From the NCBI RefSeq assembly GCF_947495665.1, contig NZ_CANLZV010000006.1:62001-126000 (forward strand): 64,000 bases of DNA. Direction: 5' to 3'. Position 1 is the stretch's first letter. Each line of letters opens with the position of its first letter. Positions 18,201-22,610 of this stretch are shown here, one piece after another. The stretch comes from an uncultured Sunxiuqinia sp. Its GTDB lineage: Bacteria > Bacteroidota > Bacteroidia > Bacteroidales > Prolixibacteraceae. A program made the translations under genes and the position numbers. The notes under the pieces are model-generated. The model ran no database searches. It was not told the DNA's origin and saw only the letters and a program-made list of their open reading frames with translations.

Positions 18201-18635
18201 TTAACGAATCAAAGCAAGGTCTTCATCAATAACCTCAGGATTAAAAGCCAGCAATTCATCCGTATACAGCATCTCCGGCACCGGACGATACAGAATGATG
18301 CGTTTATTCAGAACATGGGCAAATCCCATTTCCAGAAAGGTATTCCCTCCAATGTAGTTGGCAATGCCCTTTTTATCAAAGTTCAAAACCAGAATCCCAT
18401 CGGCCATTTTTATCTTCTCAAAATAGCTCCGAATGACATCATGCTCTATCTTTCGCCGGGCACTTTCACCCGCATTGGTTTTCTCGGCAAAATAGTCCTC
18501 CAACGTGAGCTCACCGGCTATAATTTGCTGGCTGGTCAAAGGAATATCCACCGTATGCCCCAACCGGGTTAACCCCTGTGCCACCTGCGCTATTTGTGGC
18601 GTAAAATCAATACTTGAACAGATAACAATATGCAT
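18201..18635 (-). CDS. Nucleoside 2-deoxyribosyltransferase-like protein
   Basis: The 144-residue protein has a Rossmann-like fold with an N-terminal strand (MHIVICSS), a central ADGILVLNFD strand and the motif YIGGNTFLEMGFAHVLNK, in which the glutamate is placed like the catalytic Glu of nucleoside 2-deoxyribosyltransferases. Related proteins cleave or transfer deoxyribose/ribose on nucleobases, but this small subgroup is usually unannotated, so the activity is inferred from fold. It is the last gene in a minus-strand set after a phosphoribosyltransferase-like gene and an NCS1 nucleobase permease, which supports a nucleobase salvage role. A bidirectional terminator lies downstream. Confidence 0.7.
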   Translation of the reverse strand: MHIVICSSIDFTPQIAQVAQGLTRLGHTVDIPLTSQQIIAGELTLEDYFAEKTNAGESARRKIEHDVIRSYFEKIKMADGILVLNFDKKGIANYIGGNTFLEMGFAHVLNKRIILYRPVPEMLYTDELLAFNPEVIDEDLALIR

Positions 18636-18718: not shown

Positions 18719-19972
18719 CTAAGCCTTGTCCGCAATCGTTTTGGTTTTAAGAATCACCTTTTCGATGATCACATAAGCGACAATAGACGTAAGCACACTA
18801 TTTACCGGAGCAACTCCCGGCAGAAAAGTAGCAGCTAAAACACCCATTCCCCACGCCACAACGGCTGACCAGCGAAATTTAGTGATCGTTTTCTCGGCTA
18901 ATTTGGCATATTTCATTTTATGCACCAGGTAGAAGTCGGCAATGAGCACCCCGCCAATGGATGGCAACATGGTATTCAATACATTCAGAAAGCCGACAAA
19001 GTTGTTGTACAAATAAAGGGCAAGCAAAGTCCCGACAACACCATTGACAATTACCATTACTTTTTTAGGCAAACGGGTAATGTTTGAAAAACCTAAGCCT
19101 GATGCATAAAGTGCATTGTCATTGGTTGTCCAGATGTTTAAGCCCAAAATTATCATGGCCCAAACAATCATTCCCTGCTGCATTAAAACATCACTAATAT
19201 CAGACTGCTGATAGAAAGCGGAACCAACCGCCCCAAACAAAAACATTAACGAATTACCCACGAAAAACGCAATCAGCGTGGTTGATACGGCAATTTTGCT
19301 GTTTCTTGAAAATCGGGTAAAGTCAGGAGTTAAGGTGCCACCGCTAATAAAAGAAGCTACACAAATACCAATTGCAGCATAAAGTGTAATCGGATTTGAC
19401 GGAACAATATCGAACCAAGCCTCTGTACCACCAAAATCATTAAAGGCCTTACCAACCGACATTAAGCCCAAAAACGTGATGGAAGGAACGGCAATAAAAC
19501 TAAGTATTGTCAAGGCTTTGATTCCAAACCAGGCCGTAGCGGTCATAATGAATCCAGAGACAATAACCAGCATGTAAATATTTAAGCCAGTTACTTTTTG
19601 CACCGGAATAGCAAACATGGCTACACCAACACCGAACCACCCCACTTGCGTAATTCCCAACAAAAACGAGGGTAATATGGAACCGCGTTCGCCAAAAGAA
19701 TAACGCGCCAACAGGTGAGTGGACAAATTGGTTTTGGAGGCAATAAAAGCAAGTAAGCCTGTGTAAATTCCTAAAATAAGGTTTCCAAACAATACGGCTG
19801 TAATAAAATTAGCGGCCGTTAATCCTGCTCCCAGGTTTCCACCAGCCCACATACTGGCTGAGAAAAATGTGAAACCCAGCATAACAACCAGCATGGGCCA
19901 AAATCCTTTTTGATTATTTTTATCAACAGGCGACAATGAAAAGTCATGGTCAAAGTGTGTCGTCTTTTCCAT
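18719..19972 (-). CDS. NCS1/CodB-type nucleobase permease
   Basis: The 417-residue protein has about twelve membrane helices and the NCS1 (purine/cytosine/allantoin permease) features: an N-terminal cytoplasmic segment, the broken first helix with SASMWAGGNLGAGL, LARYSFGERGS after helix 2, GWFGVGVAMFA in helix 3, and SIGGVLIADFYLVHKMKYA late in the chain. This family imports nucleobases with sodium or protons; the resemblance to CodB suggests cytosine or a purine. It lies 26 bp after the phosphoribosyltransferase gene, so import and phosphoribosylation of one base are probably coupled. The structured leader of this operon may sense the same compound or its nucleotide. Confidence 0.88.
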   Translation of the reverse strand: MEKTTHFDHDFSLSPVDKNNQKGFWPMLVVMLGFTFFSASMWAGGNLGAGLTAANFITAVLFGNLILGIYTGLLAFIASKTNLSTHLLARYSFGERGSILPSFLLGITQVGWFGVGVAMFAIPVQKVTGLNIYMLVIVSGFIMTATAWFGIKALTILSFIAVPSITFLGLMSVGKAFNDFGGTEAWFDIVPSNPITLYAAIGICVASFISGGTLTPDFTRFSRNSKIAVSTTLIAFFVGNSLMFLFGAVGSAFYQQSDISDVLMQQGMIVWAMIILGLNIWTTNDNALYASGLGFSNITRLPKKVMVIVNGVVGTLLALYLYNNFVGFLNVLNTMLPSIGGVLIADFYLVHKMKYAKLAEKTITKFRWSAVVAWGMGVLAATFLPGVAPVNSVLTSIVAYVIIEKVILKTKTIADKA

Positions 19973-19998: not shown

Positions 19999-20994
19999 TT
20001 ATGAATTTGCAATAGTTTTCAACTTATCCAGCTGACAACGGGCCACTTCCAGCAGACTAACATCGGCGAACCGGCTGGCATCAAGCTCTGGGAAACGTTC
20101 ACTGAGCAGCTGTGTAAAAGTTCTGCCCCGGCGGGCCATGGTATGCACCTGCTCCCAATATTCAATCACATCTTCCAGGTATTCAGGAAGCCAAAAAGCC
20201 CGTGACCCGGCATCGTAAATCACACAGCGCTCAATAGCATATGCCGGCGCTTCGTATTGACTTTCGATAAACTCCGGCGTCATTAACGCATCGCGTTTGA
20301 CCAAGTCGGTTCCGGTAAGTTTTATCGTCAATGGCGATGAAATGGTTGGAACGGAAAAACGTCCTTCAATGTAACAGAGGGTAGTTGATTGGTAGCCTTC
20401 AAATTTCTCGCGGCACAGGGCATCCACTTTTTCCAAAATTTCTTCCGTACGCTGTCCTCCAAAAGTGAAAAACAGAATCGATTCAATATTGATGTTGTTC
20501 ATTTCGGCTTGTTTTACCAAGGCCTCCAAGCCAAACTCTAGGCTGGTTCCGGTAGCCACAACATCGCCAATGACAATTTGTGCCGATGGAGGCATGTAAA
20601 CTTTTTGGTAATCACTTTCAATAATATGCCATTCTTCCGATTCCGGATTCCTCCGCGCACGCTGGGCACTGATAAACGACGAGCCATGCAAATTCCAGCC
20701 AAAAGCATCGGCAATAGCCTGACGCAAGCCAAAATTCAATCCTCCACGCAAAATGTTAAAAACAATGGTTTTTCGTTCTTCCAGTTTAATCACTTGCTCT
20801 TCCTGCATACTTTTTAAAGCCAGCGAACAGGCTTTGCCTAACTTTTGCGTGTAATCAACCCCCATAACGGTTGAATCATTGCAAATTGCACGCGTTTCAG
20901 CACTGGAAACAAGCAAGCGGTTGACACTTGTTTTCCCTTCTTCCTCAATTTGATAGATTGAGGAATTGTTATTCGTTGAAATTCTATTCAGCAT
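19999..20994 (-). CDS. Phosphoribosyltransferase-like protein
   Basis: The 331-residue protein contains a type I phosphoribosyltransferase core. The PRPP-binding loop reads VIGDVVATGTSLEFGL, with the two acidic residues replaced by a single D (GDVVATGTS). Earlier, NILRGGLNFGLRQA matches the pyrophosphate loop. The C-terminal third (from about residue 215) is an extension I cannot place. Known family enzymes join PRPP to a nucleobase, but this long form with one acidic residue is not a standard HPRT, APRT or UPRT, so the substrate is open. It is the first gene of an operon with an NCS1 permease and a deoxyribosyltransferase-like gene, behind a promoter and structured leader. Confidence 0.75.
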   Translation of the reverse strand: MLNRISTNNNSSIYQIEEEGKTSVNRLLVSSAETRAICNDSTVMGVDYTQKLGKACSLALKSMQEEQVIKLEERKTIVFNILRGGLNFGLRQAIADAFGWNLHGSSFISAQRARRNPESEEWHIIESDYQKVYMPPSAQIVIGDVVATGTSLEFGLEALVKQAEMNNINIESILFFTFGGQRTEEILEKVDALCREKFEGYQSTTLCYIEGRFSVPTISSPLTIKLTGTDLVKRDALMTPEFIESQYEAPAYAIERCVIYDAGSRAFWLPEYLEDVIEYWEQVHTMARRGRTFTQLLSERFPELDASRFADVSLLEVARCQLDKLKTIANS

Positions 20995-21016
20995 TTCTAA
21001 AAGATTTAGTATGTAA

Positions 21017-21087
21017 TCGGGAGAAACAGGAGACCAGAGAACGGTCTCGAAGAGTGCCCCGAGTATCTAGAATTACCCTCTAAATAC
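21017..21087 (-). ncRNA. Structured 5' leader, riboswitch candidate
   Basis: On the minus strand the leader of the phosphoribosyltransferase operon folds into stem A (GTATTTAGA, 21087-21079, with TCTAGATAC, 21071-21063; one G-U pair) with loop GGGTAAT. Stem B pairs TCGGG (21062-21058) with CCCGA (21021-21017) and encloses stem C, GAGACC (21048-21043) with GGTCTC (21035-21030). Loop A (GTAAT) can also pair with ATTAC at 21017-21013, a possible pseudoknot next to the start codon. An outer GGTC at 21093-21090 can compete for the GACC of stem C. It begins almost at the predicted transcription start. I could not match it to a named riboswitch class. Confidence 0.5.
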
Positions 21088-21094
21088 CGGACCA

Positions 21095-21125
21095 CAAAAG
21101 TGCTTTTTATTAATTAAAAATCAAA
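21095..21125 (-). promoter_or_regulatory. Bacteroidota-type promoter of the nucleobase operon
   Basis: TTTG (21125-21122), exactly 19 bases, then CACTTTTG (21102-21095), one mismatch from TAnnTTTG. Transcription would begin near 21089, so the structured leader is the very 5' end of the mRNA. Confidence 0.65.
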
Positions 21126-21236
21126 AATTGATGTTCTTAAACAGCTCCTTTAGATCATCTCTTACCCTTTTATTAACAAGTGGACAAAAATGCCTGTCTT
21201 TGAGATTTCGTCAGCCCAGGCACCAAGGCGTTGAGC

Positions 21237-21272
21237 AAAAAAAAGGCCAATCATCGTCTGATTGACCTTTTT
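21237..21272 (-). terminator. Terminator after the DUF1080 gene
   Basis: On the minus strand, AAAAAGG, CAATCA and their complements form a stem with one mismatch and a T-run at its end. It lies 75 bp after the stop at 21348. The element and the bases next to it are nearly the same as the tRNA-Asn terminator at 22499-22535. Confidence 0.85.
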
Positions 21273-21347
21273 AGCTCTCCAACAGTGGTAATATGCACCT
21301 GTTTGCAACAATTCCACGTTTAAAGAAAACTATTTTTACAACACCAC

Positions 21348-22536: not shown

Positions 22537-22610
22537 CTCCCCAGGTAGGACTTGAACCTACGACCTACGGATTAACAGTCCGCCGCTCTAACCAACTGAG
22601 CTACTAGGGA
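22537..22610 (-). tRNA. tRNA-Asn (anticodon GTT)
   Basis: A 74-base cloverleaf on the minus strand. The acceptor TCCCTAG pairs with CTGGGGA, with G as discriminator base. The D arm is AGCTCAGTTGGTTAGAGC, the anticodon loop is CTGTTAA with GTT, and the T arm has GGTTCAAGTCC. The CCA end is not encoded. A terminator follows. Confidence 0.97.

Follow-up and report, generated by a model that had tools for sequence, protein, structure and literature searches.

In the present study, we asked what the 100 nucleotides directly ahead of the gene for a 331-residue phosphoribosyltransferase (21094-20995, minus strand) may do for the genes behind them, in a stretch of 64,000 nucleotides from an uncultured Sunxiuqinia sp. 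that is called the window here. The preliminary description of this DNA had seen a structured leader of a nucleobase operon and, possibly, a new riboswitch.

Genes behind the leader

The first gene (19999..20994, minus strand) encodes a predicted phosphoribosyltransferase, the structure model of which (pLDDT 88.1) came closest by Z to 5e38_D (Z 15.1, rmsd 2.6 A, 188 aligned residues). The first 14 rows of this comparison by Z (12.6-15.1) comprised 11 entries titled UPRT, AQ2163, which is named UPRT, and TT0130 and Fur1p, both of which we take to be UPRTs; the next row, an orotate enzyme, stood at Z 9.1. Foldseek placed hypoxanthine phosphoribosyltransferases and PyrR nearest, with no UPRTase among the 50 matches listed. 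Judged by its model, the enzyme is of the UPRTase fold, and the earlier label of phosphoribosyltransferase was right by fold, though by sequence the protein passed no Pfam cut-off and gave no match to PF14681 at E 1. Weak matches to PF14681 occurred in 9 of the 21 aligned family members (best E 5.4e-4), and when the family was aligned by hhalign with most of E. coli Upp, the probability was 2.7% over the PRPP region, so that the UPRTase assignment rests on the fold. With Upp the enzyme shares, besides this fold, the PRPP loop GDVVATGTS and a C-terminal motif, DAGSR, that by eye corresponds to DAGDK of Upp; it differs in being longer, in an identity of 14-18%, in adjoining a cytosine permease, and in that an ordinary UPRTase is present besides it in 9 of the 10 carrier genomes examined, all of the window's order (the exception is G011, a genome 61% complete).

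The nucleobase permease of the preliminary description (18719..19972, minus strand) can be named more closely, since it scored 569 bits against NF008241 (cut-off 326); it matched 7qoa at E 1.2e-133. The side chains that contact cytosine in CodB, given in PMC9379551 as Gln105, Trp108 and Phe204, are kept in all 19 aligned permeases (the window's and those of 18 of the 21 permease loci), and by its sequence the protein is a CodB cytosine permease. Phosphoribosyltransferase and CodB form the conserved unit: in 21 of 28 orthologue loci the phosphoribosyltransferase gene is followed by that of the permease, and the titles of the locus records name Bacteroidota members, Desulfoluna, Desulfobacterales, Verrucomicrobiota, Kiritimatiellae, Victivallales and Lentisphaeria. 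The orthologue loci with no permease in the fetched flanks were L016, L017, L020, L028, L029, L030 and L032; a distant phosphoribosyltransferase group with 25-30% identity (L004, L005, L040-L043) likewise showed no CodB in the fetched flanks. The third reading frame (144 residues, 18201..18635, minus strand) is possibly co-transcribed and is not a conserved member, with no relative in the 35 compared loci. It is weakly deoxyribosyltransferase-like, by a non-significant phmmer match to the structure 6evs (E 0.23), and gave no Pfam or NCBIfam match, so that the earlier label was not confirmed.

A query with E. coli CodA found nothing in 9 of the 10 carrier genomes, and the one match in the window's genome is an NF005312 amidohydrolase that scores under the cut-offs of the listed cytosine-deaminase models. 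The CodB partner, the UPRTase fold, the presence of an ordinary UPRTase and the prevailing absence of CodA together suggest, from genome context, a second, cytosine-linked phosphoribosyltransferase; its substrate may alternatively be uracil, isocytosine or a related base.

Promoter, fold and conservation of the leader

The Bacteroidota promoter motif TAnnTTTG, which is centred at -7 according to PMC7366714, occurs in the window with one mismatch as CACTTTTG (21095..21102, minus strand), and the -33 element TTTG (21122..21125, minus strand) lies exactly 19 bp away, as had been claimed. In all five close relatives (loci L007-L011) TTTTTGAC stands 19 bp from CATTTTTG; L008 and L009 have an additional, nearer TTTG at 12 bp. 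Because the motif is centred at -7, transcription is predicted to start at nucleotide 3-4 after TTTG (21091..21092, minus strand), that is, with the first nucleotides of the hairpin P1, and the transcribed leader would run from about 21092 to 20995.

The leader folds better than nearly all shuffles, with -32.1 kcal/mol for 100 nt (z -2.82, equalled by 0 of 200 shuffles) and -37.2 kcal/mol for 126 nt (z -3.06, equalled by 1 of 200). The predicted minimum-energy fold, on the minus strand, consists of P1, a long, imperfectly paired 5'-terminal hairpin whose 5' arm UCCGGUAUUUAGAG (21078..21091) begins at nucleotide 4 after TTTG and whose 3' arm is UUCUAGAUACUCGGG (21058..21072), both also found in the helix lists, and of P2, a 7-bp hairpin of GAGACCG (21042..21048) and UGGUCUC (21030..21036), in which one relative shows a compensatory A-U to G-C. 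A third helix, P3, joins UCGGGG (21057..21062), which overlaps the 3' arm of P1, to UCCCGA (21017..21022). It encloses P2, depends on the GGG by which P1 is otherwise closed, and cannot coexist with the base of that hairpin, whose 3' strand pairs alternatively with the downstream UCCC around P2. Of the three-stem fold claimed earlier, P1 and P2 stand, and one stem enclosing another exists only as the alternative to the base of P1. When P1+P2 and P3+P2 were forced in turn, the energies were -31.9 and -27.0 kcal/mol in the window, -27.4 and -27.5 in L007, -26.8 and -30.7 in L008, -22.8 and -23.0 in L010, and -24.6 and -24.7 in L011; for L009 they were -23.8 and -30.0, the forced P1 being a single register that understates P1 (the unconstrained best fold, at -30.3, has P1 in another register). 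Hence three of the six close leaders (L007, L010 and L011) are near-isoenergetic, their two states lying 0.1-0.2 kcal/mol apart.

Some pairings fell away on comparison. Neither string of the proposed pseudoknot GTAAT/ATTAC occurs in the leader of any of the five close relatives, and the pairing of the 5' TGGTC with GACCG was dropped, its 5' letters not being kept in relatives. A pairing of UCUCUUGU with ACGAGAGA that would sequester the start region is strong in L007, L009 and L011 and is absent from the listed helices of the window, L008 and L010, and therefore is not general.

The protein scan led to 26 loci, and alignable leaders were present in five, namely L007-L011, which comprise three Maribellus, Draconibacterium orientale and Sunxiuqinia elliptica (L010, of the same genus as the window's genome) and have 63-66 identities with the window in 107-108 columns. 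Promoter, P1 and P2 are all retained in these five, and in four deeper leaders (L003, L012, L019 and L039) a hairpin is retained just behind the promoter box, which bears out the view of a conserved structured leader. The boxes of these four were picked by eye beside the hairpin, a choice lying outside the shuffle-test correction; in L012 and L039 the box is TA-N-TTTG, the consensus minus one base, and an upstream TTTG within 45 bases occurs only in L039 (16 bp) and L003 (24 bp).

Comparing the leaders by fixed anchors, we found that the P1 helix begins at nucleotide 3 or 4 after TTTG in all ten (window, L007-L012, L039, L003 and L019), the 5' strand retaining a YCC core and the 3' strand varying to match. 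The pairing probability of nucleotides 4-8 within the first 60 was reached, among 400 dinucleotide shuffles each, by 15 for the window, 40 for L012, 13 for L039 and 3 each for L003 and L019, and within the core by 3 for L007, 65 for L008, 47 for L009 and 14 each for L010 and L011; with one representative for each of five lineages, the Fisher p is 4.5e-5 (1.2e-5 to 1.4e-4 with other core representatives). For the P3 helix, shuffles as good numbered 0 of 400 in L039, 30 in the window, 58 in L011, 67 in L007, 76 in L008, 102 in L012, 104 in L019, 112 in L010, 269 in L009 and 367 in L003, so that, taken leader by leader, it reaches significance in L039 alone, and the window is marginal. Over the combined lineages the Fisher p is 0.012 (0.018-0.049 with other representatives), and support for P3 is modest.

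In the six close leaders, 97.6% of the cells of P2, 91.7% of those of P1 and 83.3% of those of the outer P3 helix are paired. Covariation, which the preliminary description had named as the check on its stems, is thin: P1, P2 and P3 have one compensatory pair each (in P3, C-G in the window for U-A), a count reached by 20 of 500 and 16 of 500 shuffles on few events, and most pairs are invariant or changed on one side only. In the strand UGUUU/UCCC (columns 67-78), window and relatives agree at 9-10 of 12 positions, and in the columns that follow (79-100) at 7-10 of 21-22, the difference having a one-sided p of 0.005-0.12. All six leaders have the same two linkers, CAC (columns 39-41) and UGUUU (67-71), neither of which is explained by P1 and P2 alone.

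As had been thought, the leader matches no known family in Rfam: at gathering scores only a tRNA (22537-22610) passes in the whole window, a permissive Rfam scan of 20900-21300 gave E 0.56 or worse, far under gathering scores, and the gathering score of the purine, preQ1, guanidine, PyrR-element and other Rfam families was not reached. A covariance model from the six close leaders (R1), searched by Infernal with stricter filters, was strong in 6 of 140 family genomes, always at this operon (E 3.6e-15 to 3.2e-26), and weak in five others (E 0.03-0.08); among 295 genomes of the order it was strong only in the window's own, four others reaching E 0.016-0.098. R1 did not recover the leaders of L003, L012, L019 and L039, and their grouping thus rests on position and layout. 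The element appears private to this operon. By eye, the upp genes of nine loci showed no similar hairpin (start codons picked roughly, a TAnnTTTG box in one of the nine), and no shared leader was seen among the homologues in other phyla, whose leaders are unrelated.

Orthologues of the enzyme at E below 1e-130 occur in 8 of the 140 family genomes (the window's, the five of L007-L011, the Puteibacter of L012, and L039). The 295 genomes of the order add two strong ones, L003 and L002, the stretch of the latter being that of L019, as well as a distant pair (E about 1e-39) and a fragmentary match; in the class sample of 395 genomes, only the window's own has it. Since the viral contigs and plasmids searched held no relative and PADLOC gave no match, a phage or plasmid home and a defence role were rejected. 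Literature searches found no report for Prolixibacteraceae and riboswitch, nor any joining riboswitch, Bacteroidetes and cytosine permease. The cytosine-salvage unit is small and patchily distributed, and its leader is conserved and structured.

Readings of the leader

As the best of the readings, though at modest confidence, we tentatively propose that a cytosine-salvage mRNA may begin with a cis-regulatory strand-exchange switch, namely this leader, set by pyrimidine supply; that the genes are, by annotation, those of pyrimidine salvage was counted in favour of a pyrimidine-responsive switch. In the computed folds of the six close leaders, L012 and L039, the 3' strand of P1 is able to give up the 5'-terminal YCC and to pair in P3 instead. 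Pyrimidine supply would set the balance of P1 and P3, most simply via the choice of transcription start, by analogy with the CTP-sensitive start-site switching at E. coli pyrC: a transcript beginning with YCC would form P1, and one started 2-4 nt later would be unable to do so and would form P3 instead, with changed access to the start codon or changed passage of the polymerase as the effect. Both the sensing of supply and the sign of the resulting control are what we infer here.

The loss of P1 upon truncation is trivial, and the capture by P3 is non-trivial. For starts at nucleotides 1, 4 and 7, the computed P3 is 0.01, 0.54 and 0.98 in the window (0.96-0.98 at nucleotides 6-7), 0.03, 0.05 and 0.99 in L007, 0.09, 0.13 and 0.95 in L011, 0.50, 0.81 and 1.00 in L010, 0.01, 0.02 and 0.81 in L039, and 0.00, 0.00 and 0.48 in L012. 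Against a start-site switch, L008 is in P3 at every start, L009 is ambiguous whatever the start, L003 has no P3, P3 was scored in neither the L003 nor the L019 truncation series, and the full-length fold of L019 lacks P1 owing to a strong terminator hairpin. In the five close relatives, moreover, the U-rich tract behind P3 would turn P3 into a terminator and thereby invert the sign expected of a CTP-repressed salvage operon. Between starts at nucleotides 1 and 7, the accessibility of the start codon moves from 0.56 to 0.62 in the window, 0.59 to 0.66 in L007, 0.39 to 0.53 in L039 and 0.61 to 0.59 in L008. It is the capture by P3 as the 5' YCC is lost that leads us to the switch, and the small gain in accessibility that holds us back from a firm claim. 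As for the translational control suggested earlier, competing stems do exist by computation, yet relatives differ in which pairings extend to the start codon, so that such control is only one of several possibilities.

A small-molecule riboswitch, in which cytosine, a cytosine nucleotide or PRPP would bind in a pocket built of P1, P2 and P3 and so select P1 or P3, appears to us somewhat unlikely. A structured, conserved and computationally bistable leader of a transport and salvage unit would suit it, as would the invariant CAC and UGUUU linkers. The earlier view of a structured nucleobase-operon leader outside the Rfam families is supported; the riboswitch specifically is not: many described riboswitches are not confined to one operon, unlike this element, which is strong only here, sequence similarity is lost in the deeper homologues, covariation is thin, and the pseudoknot is not conserved.

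The leader may also be no switch at all, P1 being a stable 5'-terminal hairpin that merely protects the mRNA, or else a by-product of promoter-proximal conservation. We consider this unlikely, for P2 and the UGUUU/UCCC strand are conserved too and compensatory changes fall in each of P1, P2 and P3, even if P1 is the most widely retained, support for P3 is modest, and the pairs are mostly invariant or one-sided in their variation.

If P3+P2 and a U-rich tract made up an intrinsic terminator, with P1 as antiterminator, the leader would be a plain transcription attenuator, which we hold to be distinctly unlikely. A U-rich tract does follow UCCC in all five close relatives, P3+P2 with this tract was scored as a terminator in L008 (-17.2 kcal/mol) and L009 (-18.9 kcal/mol), and in L019 a strong terminator hairpin lies 62 nt ahead of the gene, these three leaders being the ones with a GC-rich hairpin and a direct U-tract. 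In the window, however, the corresponding tract is GATTACATACTAAA, which is not U-rich, the U-tract having been lost, and P2 alone has a weak tail; L012 and L039 have no U-tract after P3, and one terminator scan lists none in the leaders of the window, L007, L012, L013, L014 and L039. Outside the Bacteroidota, terminator-like hairpins stand upstream of the gene in L016, L017, L018, L031, L013 and L014, and another scan, of 20 loci, L019 included, listed hairpins before a T-run in L016, L017, L018, L031 and, 237 nt upstream, L014.

Autoregulation, by which the phosphoribosyltransferase would bind its own leader in the manner of PyrR and pyrimidine nucleotides would modulate the binding, is quite improbable, because UPRTases are closer by Z (12.6-15.1) than PyrR (8.9 or less) and the leaders of homologues in other phyla are unrelated, despite a leader private to the operon, a pyrimidine-phosphoribosyltransferase fold that is extended at the C-terminus (the alignments with UPRTases lie within about the first 276 of the 331 residues), and PyrR structures among the best Foldseek matches, with Z 7.8-8.9 in the second comparison.

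Possible pyrimidine control in related loci, and known systems

Other leaders of the same and neighbouring genes deserve mention. In L013 and L014 (Desulfoluna), a promoter-like TTGACA is followed by an open frame beginning MVLF that runs through a hairpin and seven T upstream of the phosphoribosyltransferase gene; the hairpin has about -10.5 kcal/mol including its upstream stem and is unlisted by the terminator scans. Here the same two genes may, in another phylum, be preceded by a leader-peptide attenuator, and leader control of the phosphoribosyltransferase gene may, we infer, have arisen more than once, in different forms. At pyrB (aspartate carbamoyltransferase by NCBIfam) in the window's family, a leader reading frame of 55-82 residues enters or traverses a hairpin with a T-run in all seven loci examined (L076, L078, L081, L083, L084, L085 and L089, of which L085 is in the window's own genome, G000:C3:336161-336571:-); an eighth, L079, from another family, has a terminator-like hairpin and no overlapping frame. 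The seven look like E. coli pyrBI attenuators, and pyrimidine-responsive leaders are thus probably in use in these cells.

The pyrBI attenuator works with a leader peptide. Our leader resembles it in that some homologous leaders have terminator-like hairpins, those of L013 and L014 inside an open frame, and differs in that no ATG precedes the start codon in the six close leaders. At pyrC and pyrD, Wilson 1992, Sorensen 1993 and Liu and Turnbough 1994 reportedly described nucleotide-sensitive start-site switching; there, as is predicted for our leader, a pyrimidine gene has a C-rich start region and its transcript opens with the 5' strand of a hairpin. Here, by contrast, phylum and promoter type are others, the start sites are predicted, and the hairpin exchanges its strand with a downstream segment and does not itself cover the start codon. 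The start of codBA has a long T-run, and UTP-dependent reiterative transcription together with start switching is said to have been found there by Qi and Turnbough 1995. Common to codBA and the proposed switch would be a cytosine permease operon under pyrimidine-nucleotide control at initiation; the present locus differs in that the partner of codB is a phosphoribosyltransferase and not codA, in its long structured leader, and in a start with no long T-run. Control of codBA is also mentioned in PMC6245113.

The most far-reaching version joins a true cytosine phosphoribosyltransferase (cytosine + PRPP to CMP, cytosine becoming CMP with no deamination) to a CTP-responsive switch at the 5' end, and in this combined form we regard it as improbable. 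Cytosine phosphoribosyltransferase activity is stated to be absent from identified organisms. If this version were true, cytosine would be imported and CMP made directly, under the control of the cell's own cytidine-nucleotide pool. A 5'-end strand-exchange switch in Bacteroidota, if real, would implement pyrimidine control in a new way. The enzyme deserves no less interest than its leader, and the gene pair makes it testable whether any organism has a cytosine phosphoribosyltransferase.
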